Shown here one piece after another: positions 6,001 through 42,824 of a DNA stretch of 46,175 nt. The position numbers and the translations under genes are program-made. The notes under the pieces are model-generated. The model saw nothing but the letters and a program-made list of their open reading frames with translations. It was not told the DNA's origin and made no database searches. Origin of the DNA: a virus; the IMG/VR virus record IMGVR_UViG_3300034374_000610, positions 1-46,175 of that record; one strand, given 5' to 3'. Positions within the stretch are counted from its first letter, which is position 1. The number at the start of each line of letters is the position of its first letter.

Positions 6001-6159
6001 CTCAGATTGGTATACTACACCATTTCTTTTTTCTTGTTTTATTAGCTTTCCGTCTTCAAGAAAAGATATTGTTTCTCCTTCTCTAACACTACTTATAGAT
6101 GGTCTTTGTCTAAAGAAAGAGTCAATATAATTGACTTTATGTTCACCAGATTTTGGCAT
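1..6159 (-). CDS. Giant tail fibre protein (3' end outside window)
   Basis: An uninterrupted minus-strand frame of 2053 codons starts at ATG 6159 and runs off the window at base 1; I checked the frame at several points and saw no break. The start overlaps the stop of the tail-hub gene as TAATG. It is a trimeric-fibre type protein for host recognition. Residues 1-80 are a probable virion-attachment domain. Next come Thr/Gly-rich segments (LTGTQTLTNKTL, a tandem DVTG run near 5195-5225) and about eleven copies of the fibre repeat N/R-VGIGxxSP spread along the protein. Residues about 1090-1480 lack the repeat, contain cysteines, and look like an inserted globular domain. The C-terminus, where an intramolecular chaperone is common in such fibres, is not visible. 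Family assignment rests on repeat style; adhesin specificity cannot be read. Confidence 0.85.
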   Translation of the reverse strand, partial: MPKSGEHKVNYIDSFFRQRPSISSVREGETISFLEDGKLIKQEKRNGVVYQSEFVEAIPKLSTDEVETGVIREIIAGDGLTGGGFAGEITLNVVGGTGITANANDIAIDSTVVTLTGTQTLTNKTLTAPTLTGTTTATRINLGSTDTSSFLTGDPKIAFNGYMMLSGIVNETETGTAPAAIVFGNNSTYGNDEISLITAGQNRLYINSSGNITISQDLTISGDLTVQGDTTTIDTQNLVVEDRLIELAYGSSGTPSDTNDSGVIVNRGSSANIFFGWDEGSDRIRFATTSSTGSSSTVSFVSNADIQAGRLYGDVTGDVTGDVTGSASLNLLKSSNLSDLASASTARTNLGVAIGSDVQAYNSTLASVAGGTYTGDDSITTLGTIGTGVWQGTAIASAYLDADTAHLSGTQTFSGAKTFSSTITGSITGNAGTATALATARSITMSGEVSSGAVNFDGTAGVVIPNTTIGSGVIVNGSIASDAAIATSKLASNTISGVALGSNLNALTVGTGMAFASGSNYTGATARQINLNLSAIDHDSLGNYVENEHIDWTTDQGAINIHAGNYTDTNQLTTFVIQDGDTTNVTISQGKYVKFQALTNGGLDIDWASSLGAGSSGDPYDLQFKIDLSNMGALVDTLESGDNLLVYNADEGTALAPVSEIQSALNIPSASGTTDGVVTLNANGTLTGESNLTFDGSTLNVTGGSRVTGNAGLFQLVGTDHAYIEYFPDGISVGRKAYVGFGSSGNDTFTIANESSDADIFIKVNDGGSTLTALSIDASNVGAVKLPNDNQILYIGEGLDLRLRHDSSNSFISNVTGSFFIESLSHGGKLQFATEDSLGVKEYVLNITGDNHRVGIGATSPSTKLEIKDTTPVLRLTDSSSGVIDTAIGTIEFYSEDTSGNYPAVGASIKAMTESSFGSGHGLAFLTNADSASPTERMRIDEQGNVGIGMSSPLANLHIYEAHTAVPELRIDNSNHIMKLQANGTASVIDSTATNTLMVRASGSTKMTILNSGNVGIGTELPTSLLTTSGGDIRILGSGNRLRFNTNGSIYWDSSAGIKLENGSAENITIETNTSGDIKFNTANTGTMVLTDDKEVFIGETEQNQNLAFGGTLKTHQYLDTRDYMQHKGHFAESDWIVMESGANHVVTSYFDNTNVYVDGVYKGKIDSAFGQATISSADLSLGSVISADRAVIVHQSGTIRSMCMNTRFSGRLLGTATTRGYPITIHIYAPYSSVSYSIYRSTSANVDLSATALTTGTISQGGIITFTESDSVSGTQYYVIEADGKVCATFDAGSADHLLFTPLAMEVIASTFSREQRGGVTTGLAEDSTSISETSYSNAYYLKDTSGKYGLFANGVADGSGSDAEFAMPIEFCSDYYIYGDTNLSNYRLVCFQDTFVNVLDASGNVLYTHDASSATKHTPLYFKNGNDTGATNISTAGPFRFVGTAPFYLVCQEGGEQDECTMLGAMQHELSNNQRFKGGYVPNATTIDANLVVNDTNFTLFADSANNRVGIGTSSPGYLLDVVGTSRTDALIIDGGGTYAAGSIYSDSNWGMLFRAKQASPGQAEFRWANSADSELMRIDSSGNVGIGNNSPSRPLQIGFTTTNGEAIKLDGNASYGASIYYSRGGSYNWNAGVGGASSSASNIPASYWGIEDVSQGNAVRLAIAHTTGYVGIGTNTPSNTLEVKSGSTTPFGIKNASNSTRLQVSLTNDDADIFLYDRNTTLQTALRSEGDSYFNQGNVGIGVASPAFSWGTRGIEIQGSGVNPAIRLDRSDNIFEIAARSTDILIYNVGTARPMRFGIAGTERFRIGANEVVVNEVGESKDFRVEGDTDTNLLFVDGSADRVGIGTASPSAKFEVVGGNLRWKSTDDANTGVQLYSSNGNRQLALYGYLTSYSAIQADNTSTFKIIQNNSDGDIQFLVRPSSTDTQTDALRIDGATANVGIGTGSPSKKLHIKDSTNEIVFIESSDANADIVCADTSGSTRFRSASGYFRFYTGGSASNASASGSSLAMTINSNQRVGIGNVSPDATLHIGDNSSNFTLGTTSGDSVDL

Positions 6160-8303
6160 TATGAAGCTCTCTTATATTTTGCTCTGTATTCTATTGTAAT
6201 ATCACTTATCTCTATTTTACCGTCGCTAGTAAATTCTAATGCTATAGACTCACAATCTTCATTTATTGTAAACGCATTTACTTCGTATTGAGAGTTATTT
6301 ATAGTGCGAGTAGTAGGTGTTGGAGTATCTGAAAAACTCGTATCTCCATCTTTTGAATACTTCATAGTTAACACCGTACCAGCTGTTGCATCCCTAGCTG
6401 TTACATAAACTTTATATATCTTTTTGATTTTTCCAGGTGCATTAAAGTCTATATCTTTTGTTTGTAATGTTAAATTCTTTCCACCTATGTCTAACAAGCT
6501 ATATTTTTTGACTGTAATATTTTCAGCTGTACCAGTTCCTGAATCTTCTTCAAACTCATATGCATATATACCGTCAGGCAAATGAACGAAATTAGATTGT
6601 GCTGGTGAATCTGCTACGCTTCTAGTTACTATACTCCAAGCTTGTTTAGCAAAGTCATAAACATATATTTTATTGTCACCGTTTTCTAATAAATCTACAG
6701 CTACATATAGTTGTTTGTATTTTTGGTCAAATGCCAAAGACATATTAGATGTAAAATCAGTAGACCAGGTGTCATCTGATATATTTTCTGTTAATTCTTT
6801 TGGTATAGATGTTCCATCAAATATAAATACTCCTTCTTCATTAGCCCAACAAAGACCAAAAGGTGTTTTACATAATGCCTCTTTTTTAGTGCATCCATGT
6901 CCATCATATTCTGCTTCTAAATACCAACCAGCATCTGATGAAGAAGATACATTTATAACATAAATTTTAGATTGTTTAAAAGCAATAATTCTGTTCCCTA
7001 AAGATTCTACTGCAACAAAAGAGTCTCCGTCATTAATACCTATATCAAGAAAGTATGAATCAGGAAAAGTATTAAATCTGTTTACTGGAGTATAATAAAT
7101 TCTATCATCGAAAGTTTTATCTTCTTTACAAACATTGCAAATCCAAACCCTTCTTTGTGCAACACAAGCGCTTTTATATCCATCTACATCAATACTTTCT
7201 TCTGTGTGAGAATATCCATTAATACTATCATAAGTATCCAATGCTGGAGATTCTATAACTAAAGATGTTACTTCTTTAGTGCCAGAAGTTCTATATACTC
7301 CTGAGCCACCCCAAGAACTGTAATCATCAAATAAATTTTTTCTCACACCTCTTTCATAATCCACATCTAAGAACAAACTCCATCTTTCATTCTTGTCTTT
7401 TCTTCTAGTGTATATTCTAAATCCTTTTTCCTTTTCTCTAAATGAGTTAGCTACATTTATCTGTACTCCAACTCCTGTAAAGAAGTGACCAGTAGATAAA
7501 CTTGCAGCGCTAGGTGCAGTACTCCATACGTGAGGTAAGCTTTCATCTTCAGACAGGTCAACATAAGTGTAAGACCATTCATAGTCTCCTGCTTCAAACC
7601 CACCGCCTCCAGAGCTAGATTCTATTTGATAAATCATTTCAAATTCACCAGCTACATTTAAAGAAACTGAGTTAGTTCCAAAAGAACTAGCAGATTGTAT
7701 GTTTGCCTTAGAATCAGCTGTAGTTGCCACTGCTGCTCCTAAAACCCACTCAAAAGTACCAGTGCTGTCTCCAAATCTATTTGTACTAACAAACCTTAAT
7801 CCCGTTCTTGACAAAAATGCTATATCAGTTGTTTTACCTAAATGACTTTCATCTGCAACATATAAAGTTCCGTCTATATAATAAAATACTGGTTCTAAGA
7901 TGCCATCTATTTGATTGTTTTCTGTTCTAGAAAAATCACCAGTAGTGCCAAAAGCTCTTGACAAATATCTTATTTTAGCTCCTCCTTCTGTTTCATGAAG
8001 AGTTATAACTTCTTTTGGAGAACTTTGAAAATCTCCAATTCTGTAAGTTCCATCTCCAGGACTAGGGTTTGCTGTAATATCATATTGAGTATTGAAAGAA
8101 AAAGCAGTATTAGTGAAGTTTCTAATTTCTTCATTTGCAATACTACCTTTAGACGTAGGAGCAACTGATGTATAAACTACGCCAGAGTTTAACAATACAG
8201 CATTACTAGCTGATTGAACTTGATTGAACGCAATATCCCTAGGAGAGGACTTGGTATTAAGTCCTCCGCTAAAGTCATTTAATGTTAGCATTTGTTTAGG
8301 CAC
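6159..8303 (-). CDS. Tail hub / stabilisation-like structural protein
   Basis: A 714-residue protein beginning with GTG at 8303. The GTG has a good Shine-Dalgarno sequence (GGAGG, 8311-8315, seven bases upstream) that lies inside the preceding micro-ORF. The N-terminus carries NDFSGGLNTKSSPRDI, typical of phage tail proteins that open with a short binding arm. The middle has many short beta-strand repeats, including GLCWANEEGVFIFDG, a signature I associate with propeller-like tail-hub proteins related to P22 gp10 (Phage_stabilise). It lies directly before the tail fibre, so it probably forms the distal tail platform that carries the fibre. Role by context and motif style; exact family unconfirmed. 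Confidence 0.65.
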   Translation of the reverse strand: MPKQMLTLNDFSGGLNTKSSPRDIAFNQVQSASNAVLLNSGVVYTSVAPTSKGSIANEEIRNFTNTAFSFNTQYDITANPSPGDGTYRIGDFQSSPKEVITLHETEGGAKIRYLSRAFGTTGDFSRTENNQIDGILEPVFYYIDGTLYVADESHLGKTTDIAFLSRTGLRFVSTNRFGDSTGTFEWVLGAAVATTADSKANIQSASSFGTNSVSLNVAGEFEMIYQIESSSGGGGFEAGDYEWSYTYVDLSEDESLPHVWSTAPSAASLSTGHFFTGVGVQINVANSFREKEKGFRIYTRRKDKNERWSLFLDVDYERGVRKNLFDDYSSWGGSGVYRTSGTKEVTSLVIESPALDTYDSINGYSHTEESIDVDGYKSACVAQRRVWICNVCKEDKTFDDRIYYTPVNRFNTFPDSYFLDIGINDGDSFVAVESLGNRIIAFKQSKIYVINVSSSSDAGWYLEAEYDGHGCTKKEALCKTPFGLCWANEEGVFIFDGTSIPKELTENISDDTWSTDFTSNMSLAFDQKYKQLYVAVDLLENGDNKIYVYDFAKQAWSIVTRSVADSPAQSNFVHLPDGIYAYEFEEDSGTGTAENITVKKYSLLDIGGKNLTLQTKDIDFNAPGKIKKIYKVYVTARDATAGTVLTMKYSKDGDTSFSDTPTPTTRTINNSQYEVNAFTINEDCESIALEFTSDGKIEISDITIEYRAKYKRAS

Positions 8304-8824: not shown

Positions 8825-9207
8825 TATTGACCTATTTCTTTTCTAAGACTATTTAAAATTTCATCTTCTCTAAATTTCATAGACAAATCAGCTTCAAATC
8901 GTTTTACTTCTACTCCATATTCAAAGACAATTACAGTAGGAACAACTTTAATATCCCATTCTTTTTGAATAACTGCACCTATTTCTTTATTAGAAATGTC
9001 TACATATCCAGTATAACATTTTTCTATTTTTTCTAATGGTACTTTGTTTTGCCAGTTCCAAGAAGCGTTGACTTCTATGATTGCACAAAACTCATTTTTC
9101 ATTAATTGAATTTCTTGAAAAGTATCTAAATTAGTTGACTGTGAGTGCAACCAAGATGATAAAGAGCAAAAAGTTAATACCAAGTATGATAAAAATCTGT
9201 TGTTCAT
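8824..9207 (-). CDS. Secreted thioredoxin-fold protein lacking CxxC
   Basis: A 127-residue protein with an N-terminal hydrophobic signal-like segment (about residues 4-22, ending SSWLHSQS). The rest fits a thioredoxin fold: a beta strand ending in EVNASWNWQNKVPLE, then YVDISNKE, then VVPTVIVFEYGVEVKRF, which holds the cis-proline motif VPT. Where a redox thioredoxin has WCxxC, this protein has W-N-W-Q-N, so disulfide chemistry is unlikely. It may act as a chaperone or binding domain at the cell envelope. Neighbours are a membrane coiled-coil protein and a basic virion protein. Fold call is by motif. Confidence 0.6.
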   Translation of the reverse strand: MNNRFLSYLVLTFCSLSSWLHSQSTNLDTFQEIQLMKNEFCAIIEVNASWNWQNKVPLEKIEKCYTGYVDISNKEIGAVIQKEWDIKVVPTVIVFEYGVEVKRFEADLSMKFREDEILNSLRKEIGQ

Positions 9208-9219
9208 CTGTAAACCTCA

Positions 9220-9516
9220 TTACTTATTATTCATATTTAGTAGAGTTTCATTAATACTTCTTGTGTCTTCTTTAATGTCGTCCACCTTGTCTTCTAATTT
9301 CTCTACTTTTTCTTCAGTATTTAGAATAGAATTACGAATCATTTGGTCTTTTAAGTCGTATTCTGTTCTGCTAATTGGTGGTTCTGGTAATTTTTTAGCT
9401 TCTTCAATTTCTGCTTGTAAATTAAACCATAACCCAACAACCATAAATATTGTAACTGCTATACTGATAAGCGTTTCAATACTAAGTGTGAATTTGCTGT
9501 CTTTGCCTAGTTCCAT
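9220..9516 (-). CDS. Membrane-anchored coiled-coil protein, holin/spanin-like position
   Basis: 98 residues: a short charged N-terminus, one transmembrane helix (about residues 12-32, LISIAVTIFMVVGLWF), then a long charged coiled coil with heptad pattern (VEKLEDKVDDIKEDTRSINETL). Type and size fit a small phage membrane protein of the holin or i-spanin class. It neighbours the signal-peptide protein at 8824-9207, but no endolysin is adjacent, so a lysis role is only a suggestion. Confidence 0.6.
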   Translation of the reverse strand: MELGKDSKFTLSIETLISIAVTIFMVVGLWFNLQAEIEEAKKLPEPPISRTEYDLKDQMIRNSILNTEEKVEKLEDKVDDIKEDTRSINETLLNMNNK

Positions 9517-10824: not shown

Positions 10825-13800
10825 TTATTTAGTATTGTTCATTGTTTCAATTTTTAATTTATCTATCCCTATCAATTGTAATGCTTCTGTAAATTGAGCA
10901 TTAACCATTTGATATTGACTTACATACCATTCATACTCTCTGCTATCAACAGCCAATCTTAGGTTTATTTCAGTTCCATATCCTTGAACTATACCTATCT
11001 TAGACTGTAGTTCTGTTGCATATCCTTGAGCAGCTGCTATATAAGAGCCAGCAACTGTTCCTTGAGCGTTCACCTGTGCTAATCTTGCATTTACTTCTGT
11101 AGCATACGTATTTACTTCACTTGCTCTAGACTGCGCTTCTGCTAAATAGGCATTACCTGCATTTATTCTAGCTTGAGCTTCCTGATAATAACTTTGTTGT
11201 ATTGCAATGGCAGATTGATATTCAGCTATATTTTGTTGTAAATTCTGAGAGTATTCTTGTATCTCTTTATTCATATTTTGTTGATACAATGCAATCTCTT
11301 GATTGAATTTAGACAATATATCATCATTGTTAGCAATAGCTGCCTGCAAATCTTGTGCTTTGTTTTGCAAAGATAAAGCTTGGTCCTGTGCTTTATTAGC
11401 TATATCTACTTGTGTAGCTTGCCTAGCTTCTAACTGTGCATCTGCAGCATCTAATTGTGCTTGCGTTAATTCTTTTTGTAGGTCAGACTGATGTTTCTGT
11501 ATCTCTGCTTGTACATTTGCCTGATATCTTACATTTTCTTTATTAAACTCATTCAATTCGTTCTGAATATCTAAACTATATTTTTGTAACTCTGTATCTC
11601 TACTCTTAGAAAAGATAGAAAAGTTTTTCTCATAATTAGTTCTGTATAAGGTAACTTCCTTGTTAACATTTTGTTCATATAGTCTTAACTCAGAAACAAA
11701 CTTTGAAACCAAGTCATCATTATTTTGAATTGTTGCTTGCATAGTTTGAACTGCATTCTGTAGTGCTAAGGCTTGGTCTTGAGCTTTGTTAAATTTATCT
11801 ACGTCTGTAGTTTGAGCGGCCTCTTGTTGAGCGTCTCTAGCATCAAGTTGTGCTTGAGTTATTGCCTTTTGAAGGTCTGAGTTATGTTTTTGTAGCTCTG
11901 CCTGTATATCAGCCTGATACCTAACATTGTCTTTGTTAAACTCGTTCAACTCATTTTGTATGTCTGTAGAATATTGTTGAAGCTCATTTCTAGTTCTAGT
12001 TTGAAATATTCCTATTTCTTTGTTTGTGTTCGCTTGATACTGCTGAACTTCTTTAGATATGTTCTGTGCGTACAAGTTTAAATCTTGATTGAACTTAGCT
12101 ATAAGGTCATCGTTGTCAGATATAGTTGCTTCCATAGTTTTAATTGCATTTTGTATTGCAAGAACTTGGTCTTGTGCTTTGTTTGCTATAGCAACATCTG
12201 TTTGTTGTTTTGCATTTTGTTGAGCTTTTGCTAAATCTAATCTAGCTTGCTCTAAAACTTTTTGTTGGTCTGCTTGAAATTTTGTAACAGCTTCTTGGAA
12301 CTCTGTTTGATATACAACGCTCTCTTTGTTAAATTCGTTTAGTTCGTTTTGCATATCTGCTGTATATTTAGCCAGCTCGTTAGAAGTTTGTATTCTAAAT
12401 AAATTAATTTCTTTTTGAGAATTTTCTCTGTATTGTTGAACTTCTTTGTTTACACTAGCTGCATATTTTTGAATATCGTTAGAATATTCTTGTATTTTCT
12501 GAGCTTCAGAAGCAGAAGTTAATTCTGCATCTTTTATTGCTTCTTGAAGTTCTGCTCTGTACTCTTCCACATCTCTGTTAAATGAAGCTATTTCTTTTTG
12601 TATGTTAGCTTGATATTGGTCTACCTCATTATTTAATCTTCCAAGCTGTAATTGTGCTAATTCTACATCTTCATCTGTTTCTAAGAAAGTTTCAAATTGT
12701 GCTGTGTCCACAGATAATGTAGGAGCTGTAAATATAGGTGCTCCCTGACTAAAACTTACTGAAGGAGTGCTAACAGTTATAGCACTAGGTTCGCTTGCGC
12801 TTATACTTAAATCAGATATACTTGACAAAGAAAGCGAAATTGTAGGCTTAGTATATGTTGGAGCACTTCCTGAAACATCAATTTCAGTAGGAACTGTTCC
12901 AAAACTAACTGTAGGAACATCGCTCGCTAAAGCATCTACATTTGTTGCATTAGAATAACTTACAGATGTTAAATTTGGAGAACTAGGTGCGCTTGCAGAA
13001 ATACTTAAATCTCCTACTGCTATAGAACTTAATGCTATAGTAGGTTTTGTATATGTAGGAATATTGTTAGTTAAATCAGATTTATCTACACTTCCTACCG
13101 TTATAGCACCAATTGATGATGATTGAGCGTCTGCATTAATTGCATCAGTATACTGCACAGTTCCTAAAGAAGGAACGCTTGGAGCTGAAGAAGATATGCT
13201 GAAATCAGCTATACTAACATCCGATAAGCTAAGAACAGGTTTTGTATAACTAGGCACATCTCCAGATATATCTGCTTTAGCAACAGTAGCAACAGTTATA
13301 GCTCCTATTGCAGTAGAGCTAGCATCAGCATTTGTAGCTTCTGTGTAAGATACAGTATTTATGCTTACAGTAGGTGCACTTACTCCTGATAAATCTAAAT
13401 CTGATATTGATAAAGCACTAACTGCCGCACTTCTAGCTGCTGATATTGGAGAAGTTGCAGTTCCTGTTACTTCTACTGCTACCTCATCATATTCATCGTT
13501 AGCTAACCCTATTGCAGTATTAATTTTATCTGCTGCTGTTTTCATAGCAGTTAAAGCTGTATCTACATTTGCATCTACATTAGTTACCATTTCTCCAATT
13601 TCTGTAACAGCTGCATCTACTTGCGTGTTAATTAAATCAGCTATTGCTTGAGTTTCATCCATTTCAGTATTTATAGCAGTTAAAGCAGTAGTTATATCTG
13701 CATTACCATGTTTAGCGTTCATCAATCTCATTAACGCATTTCTTGAAGCATATAACACTACAGCATTTGTAGCCTCTTTTGGAAAGTTATCTATAGTCGT

Positions 13801-14226
13801 ATCTGTAGCTGCTATGGTAAAATCTTCATTAATTTTTACTAATTTACTATCGTCTGAAGATGCACTTGCTGGCAATGTATAAACTCTTTTGTTTTCCAAA
13901 TAATATACTGGGTCAGAACTTGTAGCAAATTCCATATATGCTCCACTAACATCTGCGGCTCTACCTGCTTGACTAGCGTGTATTTCTCTACAAGGCATTA
14001 AATAATCGTTATTATTTTCATCTTTTCTTAATACATGTAATATCTTACTATCTTCTACGCCTTGATAATTTGTAAATTCTTGTATTTCAGACATTCTATC
14101 TAGTTTAGACATTGGTAAAACATCAATGATTTCTCTAGCACCAGCAGTAAGCCAGTCTACTATAGCAACATCATCAGTGCTACCAAAGCCTGTCAAATCA
14201 TCTATTCTTGTTTTAAAATCAGCCAT
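10825..14226 (-). CDS. Elongated two-repeat virion protein, 1133 residues
   Basis: Residues 1-170 form a globular, adaptor-like domain (DWLTAGAREIIDVLPMS). Residues about 270-500 hold four tandem repeats of about 67 residues with the core SIxDLSISxSAPS and YTKPxxSLS. From about 520 to 1060 the protein is coiled coil rich in Gln, Asn and Ala; within it three long repeats of about 130 residues start near residues 682, 813 and 943 with NKAQDQ, followed by NNDD and YxQNxNKE. It looks like a rod or whisker bound at the neck or tail; an ejected protein is an alternative. The start ATG overlaps the upstream stop as TAATG. Confidence 0.7.
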   Translation of the reverse strand: MADFKTRIDDLTGFGSTDDVAIVDWLTAGAREIIDVLPMSKLDRMSEIQEFTNYQGVEDSKILHVLRKDENNNDYLMPCREIHASQAGRAADVSGAYMEFATSSDPVYYLENKRVYTLPASASSDDSKLVKINEDFTIAATDTTIDNFPKEATNAVVLYASRNALMRLMNAKHGNADITTALTAINTEMDETQAIADLINTQVDAAVTEIGEMVTNVDANVDTALTAMKTAADKINTAIGLANDEYDEVAVEVTGTATSPISAARSAAVSALSISDLDLSGVSAPTVSINTVSYTEATNADASSTAIGAITVATVAKADISGDVPSYTKPVLSLSDVSIADFSISSSAPSVPSLGTVQYTDAINADAQSSSIGAITVGSVDKSDLTNNIPTYTKPTIALSSIAVGDLSISASAPSSPNLTSVSYSNATNVDALASDVPTVSFGTVPTEIDVSGSAPTYTKPTISLSLSSISDLSISASEPSAITVSTPSVSFSQGAPIFTAPTLSVDTAQFETFLETDEDVELAQLQLGRLNNEVDQYQANIQKEIASFNRDVEEYRAELQEAIKDAELTSASEAQKIQEYSNDIQKYAASVNKEVQQYRENSQKEINLFRIQTSNELAKYTADMQNELNEFNKESVVYQTEFQEAVTKFQADQQKVLEQARLDLAKAQQNAKQQTDVAIANKAQDQVLAIQNAIKTMEATISDNDDLIAKFNQDLNLYAQNISKEVQQYQANTNKEIGIFQTRTRNELQQYSTDIQNELNEFNKDNVRYQADIQAELQKHNSDLQKAITQAQLDARDAQQEAAQTTDVDKFNKAQDQALALQNAVQTMQATIQNNDDLVSKFVSELRLYEQNVNKEVTLYRTNYEKNFSIFSKSRDTELQKYSLDIQNELNEFNKENVRYQANVQAEIQKHQSDLQKELTQAQLDAADAQLEARQATQVDIANKAQDQALSLQNKAQDLQAAIANNDDILSKFNQEIALYQQNMNKEIQEYSQNLQQNIAEYQSAIAIQQSYYQEAQARINAGNAYLAEAQSRASEVNTYATEVNARLAQVNAQGTVAGSYIAAAQGYATELQSKIGIVQGYGTEINLRLAVDSREYEWYVSQYQMVNAQFTEALQLIGIDKLKIETMNNTK

Positions 14227-19682: not shown

Positions 19683-21257
19683 TTATATTTTTTGTCCAGT
19701 AACCCAATTTATGACTCTTTTAGCCTTACTTTCTTCTATTGTAGTTATTCTGTCTTCTAGTTTATCTGCGTCGATTGCAGAGCTTTTTGGAGGTTTTGCT
19801 GTAGTGACGGCATACCAAAGTCCGTCTAGAAGGTCATCGTTCCTGCCTTTTGGAAATTCAAACATCTCATCTATTAAGTTTGCATGTTCTTTTTTAATGA
19901 ACATTTTTCTTCGATTAACAATAGGACAAAGCAATGCTTCTAGCCTATCTTCTTTTTTGATACCAGCAGGAGGTCTAACGCCTTGAGATAATCCAGGAGC
20001 TAGTTTTCTATCCTTGCCAGCAAGTTGATTTACATAATCTTTTACCAGTCCTTGAGCACCAACCTTTTCTACGTTGACTCTTCTAACTGGATGATACTCT
20101 TTTGCCATATCTACAATTTTTTTTGGCATATCATATAAAGGTGAATGTTCTCTATAATAATCTACAACATATATGTTTCTATCGCTATCAATAGCAATAA
20201 CCATAATTACCTGATAGTCGCTTCTAGCATTTGCTTCATAAGCTAGGTCAACTCCTAGGTATACATTTACAGGTATTGCAGTCTCATCAACCATCATATA
20301 GTTAAATCCGTTTCTTTCAACAAGATTACCTTGGTAATAATTTAATCTATCTATATGAAATTTAGCACTTTCTAAGTCCCTAGCTTCGTTCAAATACTCT
20401 TGAGCAAACTTATGTACTAATCCCATTTCAGTAAACCTTCTTCTAATATCCATTAGCTTTTGCTTGGTAAAGTAGCTAGGCCATAAAGGAGTGTCTTCTA
20501 CTATAGCTTTTTTATATAACACGTTCCAAGCAGACTTTCTATTCTCTTTTTCTGCTTGCAAGTATCCATCGTATACTCCTTGTAAAAAAGAATCGTAATG
20601 TACTATTGTTCCAATAAGCCATATAGAACCTTCGTTTTCTTTAGAGTTTTCTAAAGCAGGCTCTACTGTTGACATTACCCATTCTTTAATCTCTCTTCTT
20701 CTTTCTGGTGTTTTTGTATTTAACTCAGATTCAAAGTCATCAAGAATAATATTTGTATATCTTAGTCCTAATTGAGAACGACCACGTAAACGTTGAGATG
20801 TACCTTTTGCTATAATTCTATCTCCTCTAGCAGTAGTAAACTCTTTTTCTGTCCACTTACTTCCTTTTAAATCTCCAAAGTAATATTGTAAAGCAGGATT
20901 TATATCTATGTGATTTTGTATGTATTTAATATGGTCAATAGCCTGAGATTGTTCTTCTGATACCCAAGCAATGAATTGTTTTTTTTCTGGTGGAGAAAAA
21001 TATAATTGATGTAATAAAGCTGTTTTGGCTAATGTTGATTTAGCATGACCTCTAGGTAATATTATACAAACACGCTTATCTTCTCCTAAAAGTATTTCAC
21101 TTAGCTCATATTGATAAGGCGCTGGAGTTGACTTCATAAAATCTTCTGGTAAGAACATTTGACCAAAAGTGACAATATCCCTTCTTGCCAACTCCAATGC
21201 TTTTTCCTTTTGAGATAGGTCGGGTGGAATTATGTTAAAATTTTGAGGCTTCTTCAT
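19683..21257 (-). CDS. Terminase large subunit
   Basis: 524 residues from ATG 21257 (a TTG twelve bases upstream is in frame but lacks support). The ATPase half has a Walker A-like PRGHAKST at about 68-75 and Walker B NIILDDFESE at about 170-178. The nuclease half has YLGVDLAYEANARSD (first Asp near 337) and RNDDLLDGLWYA near the end, the acidic residues of an RNase H-like fold. It cuts and pumps DNA into the prohead through the portal. Its start lies 23 bases inside the preceding cyclotransferase-like gene, so the two are likely translated together. Confidence 0.92.
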   Translation of the reverse strand: MKKPQNFNIIPPDLSQKEKALELARRDIVTFGQMFLPEDFMKSTPAPYQYELSEILLGEDKRVCIILPRGHAKSTLAKTALLHQLYFSPPEKKQFIAWVSEEQSQAIDHIKYIQNHIDINPALQYYFGDLKGSKWTEKEFTTARGDRIIAKGTSQRLRGRSQLGLRYTNIILDDFESELNTKTPERRREIKEWVMSTVEPALENSKENEGSIWLIGTIVHYDSFLQGVYDGYLQAEKENRKSAWNVLYKKAIVEDTPLWPSYFTKQKLMDIRRRFTEMGLVHKFAQEYLNEARDLESAKFHIDRLNYYQGNLVERNGFNYMMVDETAIPVNVYLGVDLAYEANARSDYQVIMVIAIDSDRNIYVVDYYREHSPLYDMPKKIVDMAKEYHPVRRVNVEKVGAQGLVKDYVNQLAGKDRKLAPGLSQGVRPPAGIKKEDRLEALLCPIVNRRKMFIKKEHANLIDEMFEFPKGRNDDLLDGLWYAVTTAKPPKSSAIDADKLEDRITTIEESKAKRVINWVTGQKI

Positions 21258-21642
21258 ACTCTTTTTCAATAACTCTATCCATCATAACTAGTGTTTTAGG
21301 TGAAAGCCAGTCTCCATCTGGTATTTCTGTAAACATACTAGAACTTTGCCATAGCAAAGGTCCAGCTACATATATCCAACATTTTTCTTTTTCTTTTGTA
21401 TCATCGAGAATTATGTTTGCTGTTGTTCTAATGTATAAACCATCTTTAGTAGATTCATACATGTCATACATAGATAACTCTTCATCTGTTACTTCTAAAA
21501 GCTCTACGACAGCACCTTTTCCTTTTTTATTTTTGATTAAAGCTGGAAAAGACCTTGTACCAGGGAATACAAGACTAAAACCTTCTACTCTTCCAGTTTC
21601 CTCAAATCCTCTTCTTAGCGTTCCGTAAACTGCTAATCTCAT
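21235..21642 (-). CDS. Gamma-glutamylcyclotransferase-like (AIG2/GGCT) protein
   Basis: 135 residues with the family's N-terminal substrate-binding YGTLRRG at 6-12 and a glutamate in MYDMYES (E63) where the catalytic Glu lies, followed by GLYIRTT. Family members cyclise a gamma-glutamyl amine, releasing 5-oxoproline and the amine. The gene is wedged between the small-terminase/zinc-ribbon genes and the large terminase, overlapping both (ATGA upstream, 23 bases downstream). Link to the amidotransferase/amidoligase pair at 27561-30363 is inferred from known co-occurrence of these families. Confidence 0.8.
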   Translation of the reverse strand: MRLAVYGTLRRGFEETGRVEGFSLVFPGTRSFPALIKNKKGKGAVVELLEVTDEELSMYDMYESTKDGLYIRTTANIILDDTKEKEKCWIYVAGPLLWQSSSMFTEIPDGDWLSPKTLVMMDRVIEKEYEEASKF

Positions 21643-27560: not shown

Positions 27561-28613
27561 ATGTGTGGTATATATGGTATAGCAAAGTCACCGACGCCCT
27601 ACACTAAGAGACAACATAAACTTGTCAAAAAGGTGTTGCGTGAAATAGCAATAGATAGTGAGACTAGAGGGTCTCATTCGTCTGGTATTGCTAAGGTCGG
27701 GACTAGCACTAGAGTATATAAATCACTATTGCCGTCTGGCAAATTCGTAGACTCCAAAGAATATAATAATGCAGTCAAGTCATTAATTGACGAGTCATAT
27801 ATATTGCTTGGACATACACGATTTGCGACAGAAGGAGCAATAGTCAAATCGAACGCACATCCATTTAGAGTCGGCGACGTCGTCGGAGCTCACAATGGTT
27901 GCGTTTACAATATTAAAGAGATGCAAAGTAAACTAGACAAGCAATGTCCAGTAGACTCACAGCTTATCTTTAAGTCAATAGATAGCAACGATAACATACA
28001 AGATGCAGTCAAAGATTTTGACAGCGACTTTGCGTTATCCTTCGTTAAGAAAAATCCAATGGTATTGTATTTGTGTAGAGAGACGAATCGTCCTTTACAC
28101 GTCGCATACATTCCTGAACTTAAAACGTTGTTCTATGCAAGCGAATCGTCATTTATTGACGATGCTTTAGCAATGCATAATATAAAAGCAGACGTTTATA
28201 GTCTTAACAAAAATACATTATATGCTTTTGATACGTCGAAGTTTGACGATATCAAAACTAATGTAGAAAAGACATTGTTCAAGTATGAGTCAAGAACATA
28301 TCAATGGAATATTAATCGTTATCCGACAAGCACTTATGGAACGTACAAGTCTAGCTTAGACTATGAACAAGAAGTAGAGCTTGGATATGATGATGACAAT
28401 GGAAGCGATTGGTCAAAATCTTGGCTTAGTGACGAAGTAGTGGAGTTAGCCAATATCTTTCAAACAAGTCCTCAGTCTTGGTTTTTTGACGAGTCTGACG
28501 ATACTTGGTATTACGTCTGTCCTAATACTGAAAACGTATATAGTGAAGAACAGATGTGGGAAGACAAGTATGGACTAGATTCTTTCGAAAGAGTAGAGGT
28601 CTACGATGAATAG
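27561..28613 (+). CDS. Class II glutamine amidotransferase (Ntn-type)
   Basis: 350 residues. Met-Cys2-Gly-Ile-Tyr-Gly places the catalytic Cys right after the start, as in Ntn glutaminases. Substrate-binding motifs follow in order: RGSHSSGIAKVG, GHTRFATEG (84-92), NAHPF (98-102), GAHNG (109-113) and VDSQLIFKSID. These hydrolyse glutamine and pass on ammonia. The glutaminase domain covers about 1-240; the acidic C-terminal 110 residues have no synthetase domain. The next gene, a probable amidoligase, overlaps by eight bases, so the amide acceptor reaction is probably carried out by that partner. Confidence 0.85.
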   Translation: MCGIYGIAKSPTPYTKRQHKLVKKVLREIAIDSETRGSHSSGIAKVGTSTRVYKSLLPSGKFVDSKEYNNAVKSLIDESYILLGHTRFATEGAIVKSNAHPFRVGDVVGAHNGCVYNIKEMQSKLDKQCPVDSQLIFKSIDSNDNIQDAVKDFDSDFALSFVKKNPMVLYLCRETNRPLHVAYIPELKTLFYASESSFIDDALAMHNIKADVYSLNKNTLYAFDTSKFDDIKTNVEKTLFKYESRTYQWNINRYPTSTYGTYKSSLDYEQEVELGYDDDNGSDWSKSWLSDEVVELANIFQTSPQSWFFDESDDTWYYVCPNTENVYSEEQMWEDKYGLDSFERVEVYDE

Positions 28614-30363
28614 TAACGACGGATTAAGCAAAGAAGTACAAGAAGCACTAGACAATGAAATGTATTGTTGTGTAGATTGTAACGTCGAATCTGATTCCGA
28701 AGCAGACTTTCAGTCTAATGACACATCAGAGCTTGTATGTCACGATTGTTATCAAGAAAACTACACAGAATGTTATGAGTGTAATGAGACGATACATAAC
28801 GAATATGCGTACGAGTTCAATGGCGACTACAGATGTCAGACCTGTCACGACGATGTTTGTATGGAATGTCCAGAATGTGCAAATGAATGTCACAGGGACG
28901 ATATGGTATGGTCAGACAGATATGGAGACTACTTATGTGATTATTGTCTTGATGAAATTGAAGAAAATAGCTATCCCGAATGGGAAGTCTATTCAAATTC
29001 ATATGTCAAAACAAGAACTACATTCGTAAATCCTGAAGCAGACTATTATCGTAACGACACATTCTATATGATAGAGTCAAAAAGATACGTTGGACTAGAA
29101 CTTGAAACCAACTTCAGATACGACGAAAGTTATGGAGACGTTAGTGACGACTTAAACTTTCATCTAGGAATGACAAGAAACACAGATAATCAAGACGATT
29201 ATTATCGTTTAGGTAGAAGTGCTGTTGTGTCTGATGGTAGTGTTACAAATTCAACACATAGATATGGAGCAGAACTTGTAATGCGTCCACGTCGTGGAGA
29301 TAAGGTAATTGAAGATGCAGACTATATGTGTAAACGTCTAGAACAAGAATGGAATGCATATGCTTCCTTCAAGACTGGACTTCACTTGCATATAGATGTT
29401 CAAGATTACGACTGGATACATTGTTGTGTCTTAACACTATTTACTAAACTAATGGAGCCACATATTTATACGTGGTTACCTAAGTCTAGATACTATGGTA
29501 GTGGACATCAACGTTGGTCTAGACCTGTTACACAACCAGTCGCCGATTTTAAATATATCAGTAGTAGAGACGAATTTATAGATTTCTTCTACGACAATGG
29601 TGGTTATACAAACGATAAGTATAACGACAAAAGATATGTTGGACTGAATTGGCATAGCCACTTTCAAGGCAATCAAGGTCTGGAAATACGTTATCATTCA
29701 GGTACGTTGCAAAAAGAGAAAATCAAACATTGGACTAAGTTTTGGACTAAAGTCGTGGACAAGTCTTTTGAGATAACTGAACAAATGACGAAGTTAGAAC
29801 ATGACTACGATTTTGGTTCATCGTCGATGTATCAGTCTTTGACAATGCGTCCGTCGATAATGACAAAACTTGCAAAGTTGTCAACTAGGTACAATAGTTC
29901 ATTTTCACTTTGCGACGAAGGTCAGTTTACTGAAGTGTATGATTATAGGAAAAACTCTGAGTTATTACGACGATATCTCGGTTTACCTAAAAAAGATAGA
30001 CCTTATCTATTACAGCCTATGCTTTACTATCTAAGAAATAGGATGAATAGGTCTGTAATGTCGATAGAGAATATCTTTGACGTCTTTGAAATAGACAAAG
30101 AAACTCAGGATTTTTACAAAGGTAGAACTGAGCAACTTAGATTGTCTATGGAAGAACACGTTGCGACACAATTCTACAATGACGTATTTGCTAATGTAGA
30201 TACGATTGTAGAGTTTGACAAAAACACTTGTAGATTTGAATATAAAGACATATTCAAAGATACATTCTTGTTAGTCAATGACGACAGACGAGATGACTTT
30301 ACAAGTGATTATAGTGCAAAACAACAAGTAGACTATGATTTATTACGTGACTATATGTTGTAA
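28606..30363 (+). CDS. Triple zinc-ribbon amidoligase (COOH-NH2 ligase family)
   Basis: 585 residues. The first 115 hold three tandem Cys4 zinc knuckles, each CxxC-x(17-19)-CxxC: C22/C25/C45/C48, C56/C59/C77/C80 and C88/C91/C111/C114. The catalytic part resembles Amidoligase_2 (glutamine-synthetase-like fold): YVGLELETN with E165/E167, AVVSDGSV near 207, GAELVM near 223, TGLHLHIDVQ near 256-266 and LEIRYHSGT near 360-368. These enzymes join a carboxylate and an amine using ATP. The zinc part may pick the target. It overlaps the amidotransferase gene and ends at a terminator. Substrate unknown. Confidence 0.8.
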   Translation: MNSNDGLSKEVQEALDNEMYCCVDCNVESDSEADFQSNDTSELVCHDCYQENYTECYECNETIHNEYAYEFNGDYRCQTCHDDVCMECPECANECHRDDMVWSDRYGDYLCDYCLDEIEENSYPEWEVYSNSYVKTRTTFVNPEADYYRNDTFYMIESKRYVGLELETNFRYDESYGDVSDDLNFHLGMTRNTDNQDDYYRLGRSAVVSDGSVTNSTHRYGAELVMRPRRGDKVIEDADYMCKRLEQEWNAYASFKTGLHLHIDVQDYDWIHCCVLTLFTKLMEPHIYTWLPKSRYYGSGHQRWSRPVTQPVADFKYISSRDEFIDFFYDNGGYTNDKYNDKRYVGLNWHSHFQGNQGLEIRYHSGTLQKEKIKHWTKFWTKVVDKSFEITEQMTKLEHDYDFGSSSMYQSLTMRPSIMTKLAKLSTRYNSSFSLCDEGQFTEVYDYRKNSELLRRYLGLPKKDRPYLLQPMLYYLRNRMNRSVMSIENIFDVFEIDKETQDFYKGRTEQLRLSMEEHVATQFYNDVFANVDTIVEFDKNTCRFEYKDIFKDTFLLVNDDRRDDFTSDYSAKQQVDYDLLRDYML

Positions 30364-30619: not shown

Positions 30620-30828
30620 ATGATACTATAAGTAAAAAAAGCGACCCTGCTTTTATCAAAATATATGTTCCGATTGCTCACGACGAAGAGACTGAGCTAG
30701 ACGTATGGGATGTAGACTTTGCTTACAACGAGTTTGCTAATGCTATCAAAGAGTTTGAGAACGACAATGATATGCGTTATGACGAATGGAATAGCAAGCA
30801 AAGAGACTATATGAATGACCAAAGATGA
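30616..30828 (+). CDS. Acidic early protein, 70 residues
   Basis: ATG 30616 is coupled to the previous stop (ATGA); a start four codons earlier is possible. Very acidic, with DVWDVDFAYNEFANAIKEFE. Function unknown. Confidence 0.55.
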   Translation: MNDTISKKSDPAFIKIYVPIAHDEETELDVWDVDFAYNEFANAIKEFENDNDMRYDEWNSKQRDYMNDQR

Positions 30829-31145
30829 GCTATCTTGGATTTATATCATCTGAAAAGGGCGAGTCGTCTAAAGGTTTATGGGAACCAACGGTTGTTTGTA
30901 ATTGTGGTAATAGACACGAAGGCGACGAGCCAAAGATTTATGTTAAAGAATGTGAACAATGCGAGGAAACAATGATTGAAAACGAAGAAGGTATTATGGA
31001 AATGATAGATAGAGACGATAAAGTTTGGATGTCTACTTGTTGTGGCGGTAGTGCTATAACAGAATTAGTAGAAGACGGAGACATTGGTGTAGCTATATGT
31101 AGCGAATGCCGAGACTGGACAGACTTTGAATTGGAGGAAGAATGA
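30825..31145 (+). CDS. Acidic zinc-binding protein, 106 residues
   Basis: Cys pairs at CNCG, CEQC, STCCGG and CSEC suggest two zinc sites. The remaining sequence is acidic, so it probably binds proteins more than DNA. Coupled by ATGA at both ends. No family recognised. Confidence 0.6.
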   Translation: MSYLGFISSEKGESSKGLWEPTVVCNCGNRHEGDEPKIYVKECEQCEETMIENEEGIMEMIDRDDKVWMSTCCGGSAITELVEDGDIGVAICSECRDWTDFELEEE

Positions 31146-38063: not shown

Positions 38064-41000
38064 TTAATCCTCTAAGTATTGTGTGAAATCTATATTTTTC
38101 ACTGGTTCTTCATAATAATCTTGGTTTTTGTAAATCTCTTTTTCAAATTTTTGCATTAGACCTTTCTTATAGAAAGGATTTCTTGGGCTTTGCTCCATAG
38201 GGTCAATTTTTAAATCTGGAAACTGTGTTACAAAATAACTTTTATTCCAATCTGAAGCAAGTTTAGTTGCTTTGTCTGCCAGGTCTTGATAAGTAGCCTC
38301 ATTTATACTGCCATCAGGTCCTGTACCAGTAAACATTAACTTTGTTATGTCTTGAGCTACATATTTTCTTCTACCCTCTGCATCATCTCTGTTTAGTTTA
38401 TATGGAGGCGTACCTTCTTTTCCAGGAGGTCCTCCCAATCCTTTAGGAAGTTGTCCTTCATAAGCATATCTTTTTAATATGGAATTCGTAATAGGACCAA
38501 ATATTGGACCAGCTTTTATCATAGACTCTCTTACCTGAATATTTAAATCTTTTTCATTAACGTAAAATTGAGTAACTGCATAATCTACAGTCTTCATTAT
38601 TCTCATAGCGTCGTCTAGTAGAACTGGTTTTGCTAAGAATTTTAAATTATTTATAGGCTCAAAATCTCTTACAATAACATCATAAGACCCTACAACTCCA
38701 CTTTGGAAAATACCTTGAACAATAGCATCTCCATCTGTTTCTATCCATTTTTCTTTTTCTTCTTGACCATAAAATTGTCTGTCTCCAGAAATATATTTCT
38801 TAAAATCTTGTATAGCTTTAAATGCTATTTGTCCACCAAAAGAACCAGAAGCAGCTAAGTACAAAGGCATACCTATATTTCCATTTGCCATTTCAAATTT
38901 TATCATATCTAAAGCATATTTTGCTTGACCTATAGGGAATCTTTTAAATAAAACTGCTGGCTTATGATAGCTATCAGCAAATATTAAAGCATCTTTATCG
39001 AACTGTCTACCTATCTGAGAACCTGTAGCATACTGTTCCATAGCTTGTAAAATTTTTGTTCTCATTCTTGCTTGACCTTTGTCTGCAGGATTATATGTTC
39101 TATCTAGAATAGCATCTTTATATTTCATAGCTTCGTCTATATCTATGTTAAAAACTTTCTTCATCTTGTTTCTAGCATATGCTTGTCTATTAACTAGCGG
39201 AATTGTTAGTAAACTTTCAACATTTCTTGCAAGTCCCATTTTACCATCATACATCTTTACTAGATTTCTAATATAGTCTTCAGCCATAGCTCCAGACAGC
39301 ATTTTATTAAACTGATTGACCATCATAAATGGTTTTGCAGCTAGGTCAAAAAGACCTGTTATAACTTGCCTTGGCTTAACTTCTCCTTTTACAAGTTTAA
39401 CAAAAGCAGTTGTAGGGTCATCAAATTTAAGTAAGTTTGCTTGTCCTATTTCCAAAGCTCTACTACCTCCTAAAAGCTCGTCGATAACAGAAAGACCAGT
39501 TATTCCAGATTTACCAAGCATATCTCTTGCTTGAGGGTTAAAGAACATATTGTGAGTACCTCTTACTAAAGAGCCTGGTCCAAACTGAGGTAATGAAGAT
39601 ATAAACACCTGTGTGGCATTAGGTATTGTTGCCGTACCAATAGATATCTTACTAAACATTTCAAAGTTTGAAGCCCAATTCATTACTCCAGCAAATTCTC
39701 CTCTTCTATTCATTGCGTCTTCACCAGTAAAAGATTCTTTTAAAAGCCTTACAGCGTCTTTTTCTTTTACAACAAATCTAGGTAGTTTTCCTCTTACATC
39801 ACTACCAAATCTAGCACTATTAGCTCCCATTCTTCCTAGAAGTGCACCAAAGCCTCTAAGCTCTGCTTCTTCTGGTATTCTATCAATTAATTTATTTAAA
39901 AATGCAGCGTCTGGTGTAAATGTTTTTGATAACTCAATTCTTTTTGTAGCCCCGTTTATGTAATCTGGGAACAAAGTCATAAGATTTGTATCTAACATAT
40001 TCTTTTTACTTGCTACAACTTCTCGTAAAATGTCTAGGTTGGTTACAGTAGAACCTACAATTCTTCTTGATTTTTCCAAAGGAGCATAAATCTTAAATCC
40101 ATCTGTATATATTGTAGAGTTCATAGCAGCCCATACATCATAGTTAGGAACATCAGATAATACTTCTGGACTGTCATTTTGTAATTTCTTTTTTGTTAAA
40201 TTAAATAAATCTCCAAATGATTTTTTATTATCATCAGCAGACTTTACAAGCTTTGTAACAAAATCTTCAATAGTTTTATTTAAGGCTTCTTTACCCTTGT
40301 CATCCAAGTTTCTCAAAGCTACTTCAGGGTCTAAAGATATTTCTCCAACTATTTGTTGAACCTTTTGATTTAAATTTAACATATCTGTATATATCGTATC
40401 TCTTATTTGTTTCTTAATAACAAAAGGCATATACCATTCTTTTCTTCCAGCTACCTTTATCTTTGCTTTAAGAGCATCATCATAGACTTCATCCATAATA
40501 GTTTTAATACCTTCAATAGCATTAATTCTTCTTTTTAAAAATGCAACTTCTTTCTTTGTTATTTGCCCAGATTTTTCAAGCTTAGTTGCCTGAGATTTCA
40601 TAGCTCTTATAGCTCTAGGTTTAGCATCTAATCTAATATACTCATCAAAACCTGAAGATATTGTTGTTCCATTACTTAACTTAATTTTTTCTCCAGTTAT
40701 CCATTTTTCTAGCATTTCATTTCTAAAAGGATTATATCCTGTTGCAAATCTTGGTAAACCTTTTCTAACACTTAATACAGCTTCGTCCATACCAAAAGCT
40801 CTTTGTAGATTGACAAGTCTTTCTGTGGATTGTTGAATTACTCTTCTATCTGTTTTTGATATTAGTTTTATAGCAGTTCTAGCAGCAGGAGATTGAACAT
40901 CTTTTCCTATGCTACCTACTAAAGATTTTGCATAGTTAAGTATGTTAGATTCGTTTGCAATTCCTGAAAGATTATCTAAGTCTGCCCCATAGTTGGTTTT

Positions 41001-42824
41001 TATATGCTCTTCAAAGTTTTTAATATACTGAATATCTCCTATTTGCTCAGTTACTAGTCTCATCTCAACATCTGTCATATCTTTAATTCTTGGAGGCTGT
41101 TTTAAATTGTTCCATTTTTTGATATCATATTCATCTGCTACCTGCTCTAACGCTCTAATGTAATCTCCCTTTTCCAAACCATTCAAGCCTCTGTTTGCAT
41201 CTGTTCTAAATTGTCTAAGTTTTCTTCTTCTTTCGTAAGTTAGACCAAAATACTTTCTATTTTTTTCTTTAAATTTTTTAGCTAAGCTTGGTTGTGATGT
41301 GTAAAATTTTAAGAATAAATCTGAATTTACAGGGTCAAGAGCATAGTTTGTTCCTCCAACTTCTACTTCAAATTGTATTCCATCGTCCACATATTTTATG
41401 CTTTTTCTATTTATCTTAGCATCTAAGCTAGCTGGTATTGCTTCAACATCTGCCTGTTCAATTACTTTTCTTCCTTTTCTATTAACTTTTTCTATAGGCT
41501 TTCCAAATATATCTACATTAGCATATGGACCGCTAGCCATTCCAGCTGGTAATTGTTTTTTGTTTATATCTCTAATAGTTAAAGCAACCTGCTCTGTAAT
41601 CATAGGGTCGCCTTTTCTACCAGTCAACCTAATTAAAGGCTCTTGAACTCTTTTATATACATCAGATGACCTTCTTATAAGTCCTTGCAATTCTACAGCT
41701 TCTGGTATAGCTTCGCTTATCTCATCAAAATTTAAACCTCTTAATTCTTGTCCAGGTATTTCTCCAAATACTCCCTTTTCTTTTAACCCTATAGATTTAC
41801 CTTCTCTATAAGCTTTTCTAGCGCTATTGAATGCTGCTCTTGGTAAGCCTGCTGCAGCTACAATACCAGTAGCTAGTACAAAACTTTTCATAGTGTCACC
41901 TTCTTGAGATTCTGATATTTCTCTTCCGTAAAGCAAAGGACTTGCACCTATAACAGATAATATCTCGGCCCCTATACCTAGCTCTAAACCTCTTGCTTTC
42001 TCTAGAGGTTTAAGTTCTCTTTCAAGGCTTTTGGTAAATTTTAGTTTTTTAGGTTTAACATATCTAACAGCACCATATGCTTGACCTCCAATAGCAGCCA
42101 CTCCGAAACCTCTTAAATAGTCCACTGGGTCTGATTGGTCTAACATATCTTTTAGTACAGTATAATATCTTTCATCTTTATCTTTTATATTTTGATATTT
42201 AGATATGTCAAAATCAGATTCTATAATCGCATCTCTTACTTCTATAGCTCCACTATATAAACCTTCTTGTGCTGCAAAAGCACCACCTTCTACAAAAGTA
42301 ATTCTTGATACATCATCTACAAGCTCTTTTTTTAATTTATTGCTTACTAAACCTTTTTTAACCATTTGGTTTGCAGCAAACTCCATGGCTTTTCTACCTC
42401 CAGCTATTTGAGCTCCTTTACCAACAACACCTCCTGCTAAAAGACTACCTACATTTGTTGGTGTAGGAACTAAAAAAGAACCCATTTGAATAAAGATGTC
42501 TCTAGCTAAACTTGAATCAATAGCATCTCTATTTGGAACTGAATACATTTTTCTACCAGTAGCAATTTCTGTAGCAATACCTTCAATGCTATTGTTGTAC
42601 ATTTCTTTTACAGCAGTAGGTAAATATTTTTCCATAAAAGAACCTATGATATCAGATTTAGGTTGTGAGTTTGGTTCGTCTAAAGGTTTGAAGGTATCGA
42701 TTTCTGTATCTACAATACCAGCTGAAAAGTCTAATGATAAAGTATCTGGAATATCAAGGCTTACTTCTTTTGGAAGATTTAACCCTGCACTAAAATCTAT
42801 TGATTTTTCTTGTGGGTCTGGCAT
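38064..42824 (-). CDS. Large internal virion / ejection-type protein, 1586 residues
   Basis: A long, mostly helical protein with several short hydrophobic segments (GSLLAGGVVGKGAQIAGG near 125-145, SVIGASPLLYG near 295, LATGIVAAAGLP near 315-330) that could insert in membranes. Length, composition and place in a run of helical proteins with a lytic transglycosylase fit podovirus internal core proteins that leave the capsid during DNA entry. No enzyme motif recognised. A tape-measure protein is less likely without tail-tube genes. AGGAG lies six bases before the ATG. Confidence 0.65.
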   Translation of the reverse strand: MPDPQEKSIDFSAGLNLPKEVSLDIPDTLSLDFSAGIVDTEIDTFKPLDEPNSQPKSDIIGSFMEKYLPTAVKEMYNNSIEGIATEIATGRKMYSVPNRDAIDSSLARDIFIQMGSFLVPTPTNVGSLLAGGVVGKGAQIAGGRKAMEFAANQMVKKGLVSNKLKKELVDDVSRITFVEGGAFAAQEGLYSGAIEVRDAIIESDFDISKYQNIKDKDERYYTVLKDMLDQSDPVDYLRGFGVAAIGGQAYGAVRYVKPKKLKFTKSLERELKPLEKARGLELGIGAEILSVIGASPLLYGREISESQEGDTMKSFVLATGIVAAAGLPRAAFNSARKAYREGKSIGLKEKGVFGEIPGQELRGLNFDEISEAIPEAVELQGLIRRSSDVYKRVQEPLIRLTGRKGDPMITEQVALTIRDINKKQLPAGMASGPYANVDIFGKPIEKVNRKGRKVIEQADVEAIPASLDAKINRKSIKYVDDGIQFEVEVGGTNYALDPVNSDLFLKFYTSQPSLAKKFKEKNRKYFGLTYERRRKLRQFRTDANRGLNGLEKGDYIRALEQVADEYDIKKWNNLKQPPRIKDMTDVEMRLVTEQIGDIQYIKNFEEHIKTNYGADLDNLSGIANESNILNYAKSLVGSIGKDVQSPAARTAIKLISKTDRRVIQQSTERLVNLQRAFGMDEAVLSVRKGLPRFATGYNPFRNEMLEKWITGEKIKLSNGTTISSGFDEYIRLDAKPRAIRAMKSQATKLEKSGQITKKEVAFLKRRINAIEGIKTIMDEVYDDALKAKIKVAGRKEWYMPFVIKKQIRDTIYTDMLNLNQKVQQIVGEISLDPEVALRNLDDKGKEALNKTIEDFVTKLVKSADDNKKSFGDLFNLTKKKLQNDSPEVLSDVPNYDVWAAMNSTIYTDGFKIYAPLEKSRRIVGSTVTNLDILREVVASKKNMLDTNLMTLFPDYINGATKRIELSKTFTPDAAFLNKLIDRIPEEAELRGFGALLGRMGANSARFGSDVRGKLPRFVVKEKDAVRLLKESFTGEDAMNRRGEFAGVMNWASNFEMFSKISIGTATIPNATQVFISSLPQFGPGSLVRGTHNMFFNPQARDMLGKSGITGLSVIDELLGGSRALEIGQANLLKFDDPTTAFVKLVKGEVKPRQVITGLFDLAAKPFMMVNQFNKMLSGAMAEDYIRNLVKMYDGKMGLARNVESLLTIPLVNRQAYARNKMKKVFNIDIDEAMKYKDAILDRTYNPADKGQARMRTKILQAMEQYATGSQIGRQFDKDALIFADSYHKPAVLFKRFPIGQAKYALDMIKFEMANGNIGMPLYLAASGSFGGQIAFKAIQDFKKYISGDRQFYGQEEKEKWIETDGDAIVQGIFQSGVVGSYDVIVRDFEPINNLKFLAKPVLLDDAMRIMKTVDYAVTQFYVNEKDLNIQVRESMIKAGPIFGPITNSILKRYAYEGQLPKGLGGPPGKEGTPPYKLNRDDAEGRRKYVAQDITKLMFTGTGPDGSINEATYQDLADKATKLASDWNKSYFVTQFPDLKIDPMEQSPRNPFYKKGLMQKFEKEIYKNQDYYEEPVKNIDFTQYLED

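Follow-up and report, generated by a model that had tools for sequence, protein, structure and literature searches.

Phage amidoligase cassettes of the phiEco32/LUZ24/PA11/RIO-1 type combine an Amidoligase_2 ligase with a class II glutaminase and often a gamma-glutamyl cyclotransferase, close to replication genes; the founding work on them is said to be that of Iyer et al. 2009. Their sequence-based prediction dates back years, and we found no demonstration of a substrate in the literature. PA11 and MW202615, which we inspected, carry a glutaminase, a COOH-NH2 ligase, an amidoligase and an ATP-grasp enzyme, with a cyclotransferase in MW202615.

The window analyzed here (the whole stretch of DNA, positions 1-46,175 of IMG/VR virus record IMGVR_UViG_3300034374_000610; at 46 kb it may be incomplete) belongs to a virus of bacteria and likewise holds an Amidoligase_2 ligase, a class II glutaminase and a cyclotransferase. 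An earlier note on this DNA had said that such pairs were predicted in phages, and cassettes of this general kind have indeed been described. We read the window set as a reduced, re-tooled variant of the known cassette, not as the same cassette, because matches to the PF14395 ligase and to ATP-grasp enzymes are absent from its lineage. A PF14395-type second COOH-NH2 ligase gave no match in the window or in 11 lineage contigs (40-57 kb, possibly incomplete), nor did the ATP-grasp families R2K_3, R2K_2 and RimK, for which the cassette controls matched, mostly below cutoff. Furthermore, the three fingers and the long C-terminal extension of the window ligase are absent from the sampled phiEco32-type cassette ligases, and the window cyclotransferase, unlike that of the cassette, sits apart, on the late strand.

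Closer in architecture are mycobacteriophage Marvin (gp105/gp106), gut contig MT839723 and MW202733, where a ligase with N-terminal CxxC fingers lies directly beside a class II glutaminase. Their sequences are very distant from the window, their gene order is opposite, and no cyclotransferase was seen in their loci. Marvin gp105 has the weakest membership, with fewer CxxC motifs than the window ligase and a whole-record score below the Amidoligase_2 profile.

Glutamine-dependent amidation of carboxylates, as proposed here for the window pair, is also carried out by the LtsA/AsnB-type DAP amidotransferases and by MurT/GatD. LtsA is a single chain that includes a domain of the asparagine-synthase type, and in MurT/GatD a Mur ligase partners a class I glutaminase; unlike the window pair, neither has a glutamine-synthetase-fold ligase. 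LtsA does use a class II glutaminase (PMC7920481). Glutamine synthetase and YbdK, of the gamma-glutamylcysteine ligase family, share with the window ligase the catalytic fold and the layout of acidic, His and Arg motifs, but they are only about 10-12% identical to it, have no fingers and are not paired with a glutaminase.

Architecture of the locus and its three enzymes

The predicted features of the set are as follows.

27561..28613 (+): stand-alone class II (Ntn) glutaminase, 350 aa (GATase_6, PHROG 4736, invariant catalytic residues)
28606..30363 (+): zinc-finger amidoligase, 585 aa (Amidoligase_2, AlphaFold model, Foldseek)
28669..28749 (+): finger 1, residues 22-48 (C22 C25 C45 C48), Cys conserved in 35 ligases
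28771..28845 (+): finger 2, residues 56-80 (C56 C59 C77 C80), Cys conserved in 35 ligases; CxxC-hairpin-CxxC-helix in the model
28867..28947 (+): finger 3, residues 88-114 (C88 C91 C111 C114), Cys conserved in 35 ligases
29077..29757 (+): catalytic amidoligase core, residues 158-384 (GxExE, DxS, E, HxHxD, N, ExR; Pfam match 160-383, invariant residues)
29758..30360 (+): C-terminal extension, residues 385-585, mostly helical in the model
21235..21642 (-): gamma-glutamyl cyclotransferase (GGACT family), 135 aa, flanked by the large-terminase and small-terminase genes (PF06094, PHROG 2520)

The two plus-strand ORFs lie exactly, to the base, where the earlier note had placed them, and overlap by 8 nt (28606-28613), with the ligase ATG at 28606 and the glutaminase stop TAG at 28611-28613. 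A clear Shine-Dalgarno sequence, AAAGGAG, precedes the glutaminase ATG. Beyond the pair, the plus-strand block continues with exonuclease, RusA resolvase and DnaB genes, while the terminase/portal/capsid block occupies the minus strand; the GC skew flips its sign at about 25 kb and once more near 37-38 kb. Early expression of the pair can fairly be inferred from the strand block that it shares with the replication genes.

Just 3' of the pair, 30825-31145(+) encodes a 106-aa Cys-rich protein with several CxxC motifs, which is kept in relatives and has no family match. The late strand also carries very large ORFs at 1-6159(-), 6159-8303(-), 10825-14226(-) and 38064-42824(-). When scanned, the latter three showed no convincing match to any family; the first, at the left end of the window, is open (2053 aa). 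Terminase and portal, searched for host assignment, gave remote and scattered matches only. PADLOC, with its models of anti-phage defence, returned no family for the glutaminase, the ligase or the cyclotransferase, and a defence-system reading was rejected on this ground.

The glutaminase matches GATase_6 (E 2.2e-13, 50.8 bits versus a cutoff of 27) and PHROG 4736 (E 1.8e-39). Its Ntn domain covers approximately residues 1-240 (27561-28280) and is followed by an acidic C-terminal tail with an average net charge of about -19. Met1-Cys2-Gly3 is invariant in the relatives, with Cys2 as the N-terminal nucleophile. C2, the glutamine-site arginine R87 (GHTRFATEG), the oxyanion pair N112-G113 (HNG) and the substrate aspartate D132 are all invariant across nine glutaminases, so that the Ntn catalytic site, whose lack would have spoken against the reading of the earlier note, is intact. 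Purifying selection is strong on the Ntn core (dN/dS ~0.08-0.16) and weaker on the tail (0.21-0.49). An identity as GlmS, PurF or AsnB was rejected, since only the N-terminal parts of those models match, all far below their cutoffs. The protein is thus predicted to be a stand-alone glutaminase and, having no synthase domain of its own, would need a partner.

The adjoining ligase matches Amidoligase_2 (PF12224) over residues 160-383 (E 3e-16, 60.5 bits versus a cutoff of 22). E165, E167, D210, E223, H260, H262, N348, E360 and R362 are invariant across 35 ligases, and the core is under purifying selection (dN/dS 0.15-0.24). A 9-sequence alignment yielded a model of too low quality (pLDDT 49); the usable AlphaFold model, from a 35-sequence alignment, reached pLDDT 82 and pTM 0.73, with core stretches 338-342 and 352-356 modelled poorly. 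Among solved structures, Foldseek searches with this model placed glutamine synthetase (E 8.2e-4) and YbdK at the top, at probabilities of 0.98-1.00, although the whole-chain TM-score to glutamine synthetase was low (about 0.26) even at probability 1.00. Among viral models, phage amidoligases ranked first, with E-values down to 1.7e-15. Profile and structure searches thus agree with the amidoligase fold suggested earlier: the protein is assigned to Amidoligase_2 of the COOH-NH2 ligase superfamily, its catalytic part adopts a glutamine-synthetase/GCS fold in the model, and ATP-dependent amide formation is predicted. No named phage showed similarity over the whole ligase, the catalytic part alone matching at about 22-30%, and two scans of bacterial and archaeal genomes, resting on short exact peptides, found no relatives in 84,980 species.

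Residues ~391-450 of the ligase (29776-29955) are hypervariable. In the relative L004 (about 9171-9350) this segment has been swapped for the allele of the L005-L007 clade: it is 80-87% identical to that clade and 49-59% to the window, while its flanks are 83-100% identical to the window. The swap hints at a diversifying recognition surface.

The N-terminus of the ligase contains 12 cysteines arranged as six CxxC pairs (22/25, 45/48, 56/59, 77/80, 88/91, 111/114), giving three fingers of two CxxC knuckles each, and every one of these cysteines is at least 90% conserved among the 35 ligases. The sole clear finger loss in the lineage is found in L136 (8872-10908), where the finger 2 cysteines are gone and CxxC motifs remain only at 44, 68 and 112. 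In the model, each finger runs CxxC, beta-hairpin, CxxC, helix, with helices 46-52, 78-84 and 112-120 sitting on the second CxxC. Because of these helices the fingers look treble-clef/LIM-like rather than like all-beta zinc ribbons, so that of the three Cys4 zinc ribbons described earlier the three four-cysteine fingers stand and the ribbon type looks less apt. The window ligase falls short of the LIM domain cutoff (PF00412), which relative L140 reaches (23.7 bits versus 22.9), and PDB matches to the LIM proteins PINCH and CRP2 are weak (E 0.2-0.8). We found no literature linking a LIM domain to an amidoligase, and in a jumbo-phage review that also mentions zinc ribbons the word "amidoligase" occurs in a reference title only.

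The finger domain is strongly acidic. It consists of 28% Asp+Glu and carries a net charge of -22 to -29 over ~99 residues in 36/36 relatives, Zn-thiolates not counted; the catalytic core, by contrast, is near-neutral. Since the fingers are so acidic, their partner is probably a protein and not a nucleic acid, which, together with the LIM-like model, narrows the recognition of a macromolecule that had been suggested for them.

The third gene, 21235-21642(-), had been overlooked in the earlier two-gene description. Its product matches PF06094 (E 2.1e-15, 57.8 bits versus a cutoff of 22.8) and PHROG 2520, and the catalytic-type E63 and the VYGTLR motif are conserved in 32 relatives, as are Y70 and R72. 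The gene is present in 43/43 distinct relatives with enough flanking sequence and in 12/12 lineage records searched whole, and on this evidence we count it as the third member of the set. Most of the distant contigs with finger-bearing ligases are without it, which makes its association with the pair a lineage-specific one.

Pairing of finger-bearing ligases with class II glutaminases

Scans of viral contigs yielded about 50 distinct ligases of the window lineage, to which a further scan with a mixed alignment added no contigs. In 47 of the 48 distinct relatives with upstream sequence, a glutaminase is directly adjacent to the ligase (120-nt limit), mostly overlapping it. The one exception, L016, shows a 131-nt overlap when the longest ORF is used and is thus adjacent too, an artefact of the ORF start. 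Within one lineage, such adjacency could be mere synteny.

Distant phages speak to this point. A class II glutaminase adjoins the finger-bearing ligases of L139-L145, at 24-28% identity, and also the more remote ones of L146, gut contig L151, the groundwater podovirus MW202733 and Marvin. In these loci the ligase precedes the glutaminase, opposite to the window, which argues that adjacency is not just inherited synteny. The pairing recognized earlier therefore extends well beyond the window genome, and what is new here is that finger-bearing amidoligases recur in distant phages, both on environmental and gut contigs and in Marvin, always beside a class II glutaminase in our sample.

The finger-less amidoligases of named phages (n=10, with CxxC motifs in 0/10) behave differently. 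Five share a stretch with a class II glutaminase (L011, L013, L079, L082 and L084), whereas for the other five no class II glutaminase was found anywhere in the phage genome, indicating that the ligase fold does not require one. The contrast between finger-bearing and finger-less enzymes is suggestive, in a small sample picked by similarity matches.

Several loci show further arrangements. L143 (6754-11486) encodes two amidoligases, one fingered and one finger-less, each directly preceding a class II glutaminase of its own, so that the module is duplicated in tandem. On the L139 contig (G012), 18277-18633(-) holds another class II glutaminase domain, a stronger one, in a 515-aa frame away from the pair. 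In Marvin, gp105 (L148 3971-5332) belongs to a family named "glutamine amidotransferase domain protein" in some phage records, yet it resembles a finger-bearing ligase, of which it is a weak member; gp106 (L148 5412-6311) begins Met-Cys and resembles a glutaminase. The two annotations may be swapped in phage records.

Proposed reaction and candidate targets

We propose, with a probability of roughly 0.6, that the overlapping genes encode a two-subunit glutamine-dependent amidoligase. In subunit 1 (27561-28613), Cys2 would hydrolyse glutamine and release ammonia. In subunit 2 (28606-30363), with its glutamine-synthetase/GCS fold, ATP would activate a carboxylate, which would then be joined to that ammonia. 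We infer that the subunits form a complex through which ammonia is transferred, possibly by a channel, and that the three acidic LIM-like fingers act as a protein-docking platform for the glutaminase or the substrate. The cyclotransferase may handle gamma-glutamyl amides made or met along the way, and the likeliest substrates would be carboxylates, either of a cell-envelope peptide or of a protein.

This proposal draws on what can be read from the sequences and the model: the family and fold assignments, catalytic residues intact in all three enzymes, acidic fingers in every relative compared, a pair conserved in the lineage and recurring in reversed order in distant phages, and the third gene. 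Against it, the ligase could take an amine other than ammonia, which we consider less likely. In addition, half of the ten sampled finger-less phage amidoligases have no genomic class II glutaminase, whole-chain TM-scores to glutamine synthetase are low, and the cyclotransferase is absent from most of the distant finger-ligase contigs. The four readings of the target considered below refine the two-subunit explanation and do not exclude it; envelope peptide and protein lead, followed by a small molecule, with nucleic acid last.

Our first choice, held tentatively, is the envelope. Here the pair would amidate or cap peptidoglycan precursors at D-Glu or DAP carboxylates, or link peptides to them, and the altered wall would exclude competing phages or lysins. 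For related phage cassettes, a change in peptidoglycan and the exclusion of other phages have been proposed, citing Iyer and colleagues (PMC5498523, PMC10580990, PMC11318856). LtsA provides a precedent for a class II amidotransferase acting on DAP: in Corynebacterium it amidates the DAP of lipid intermediates, and cells that lose it become sensitive to lysozyme (PMC7920481). Conservation over phages of different hosts is also what a general target would predict. However, we found no experimental support in the phage literature, the window lineage lacks the ATP-grasp enzyme and the second ligase known from the published cassette, and acidic LIM-like fingers are not what one would expect for the binding of lipid II or of wall peptides.

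A protein target is possible, if somewhat doubtful, and ranks second. The fingers would serve to dock a basic protein, from host or phage, whose carboxylates the enzyme would then amidate or join to an amine or peptide. LIM domains are protein-binding modules, and the fingers are conserved, treble-clef/LIM-like and strongly acidic; the fast-varying ligase segment 391-450, recombined in L004, behaves as a recognition surface might. On the other hand, the fingers may do no more than hold the glutaminase, no candidate target has emerged, and we found no precedent for phage protein amidation in the literature. In a bolder and rather improbable version, the finger-amidoligase and its constant glutaminase form a distinct phage protein-modifying system, in which the acidic LIM-like array docks a basic protein common to very different hosts and its carboxylates are amidated. 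We know of no phage with carboxylate amidation as a post-translational modification.

Less probable than either leading target is a small molecule, with the set making or breaking gamma-glutamyl amides or other metabolites of nitrogen or glutathione-like metabolism as an auxiliary metabolic function. The cyclotransferase and the closeness of the ligase fold to gamma-glutamylcysteine ligases such as YbdK are consistent with such a role, and an auxiliary-metabolism reading has been offered for the similar gene set of Phage-ZRK32 (PMC10945688). Nevertheless, three conserved acidic fingers have no evident use in a small-molecule ligase, and distant finger-ligases are mostly without the cyclotransferase.

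Nucleic-acid binding is common among zinc ribbons, and phages are known to hypermodify their DNA, but fingers that bind DNA or RNA while the pair hypermodifies a base or tRNA are very improbable given the finger charge, and no nucleotide-hypermodification gene was recognized among the scanned window ORFs.

The two-subunit amidoligase remains our preferred reading, and the pair probably adds nitrogen to a molecule in the infected cell. The comparison isolates the smallest conserved unit, two genes encoding a glutaminase and a finger-bearing ligase, which recurs in unrelated phages including the cultured Marvin. Its acidic fingers can serve as bait for the partner, which makes the question of the substrate directly testable.
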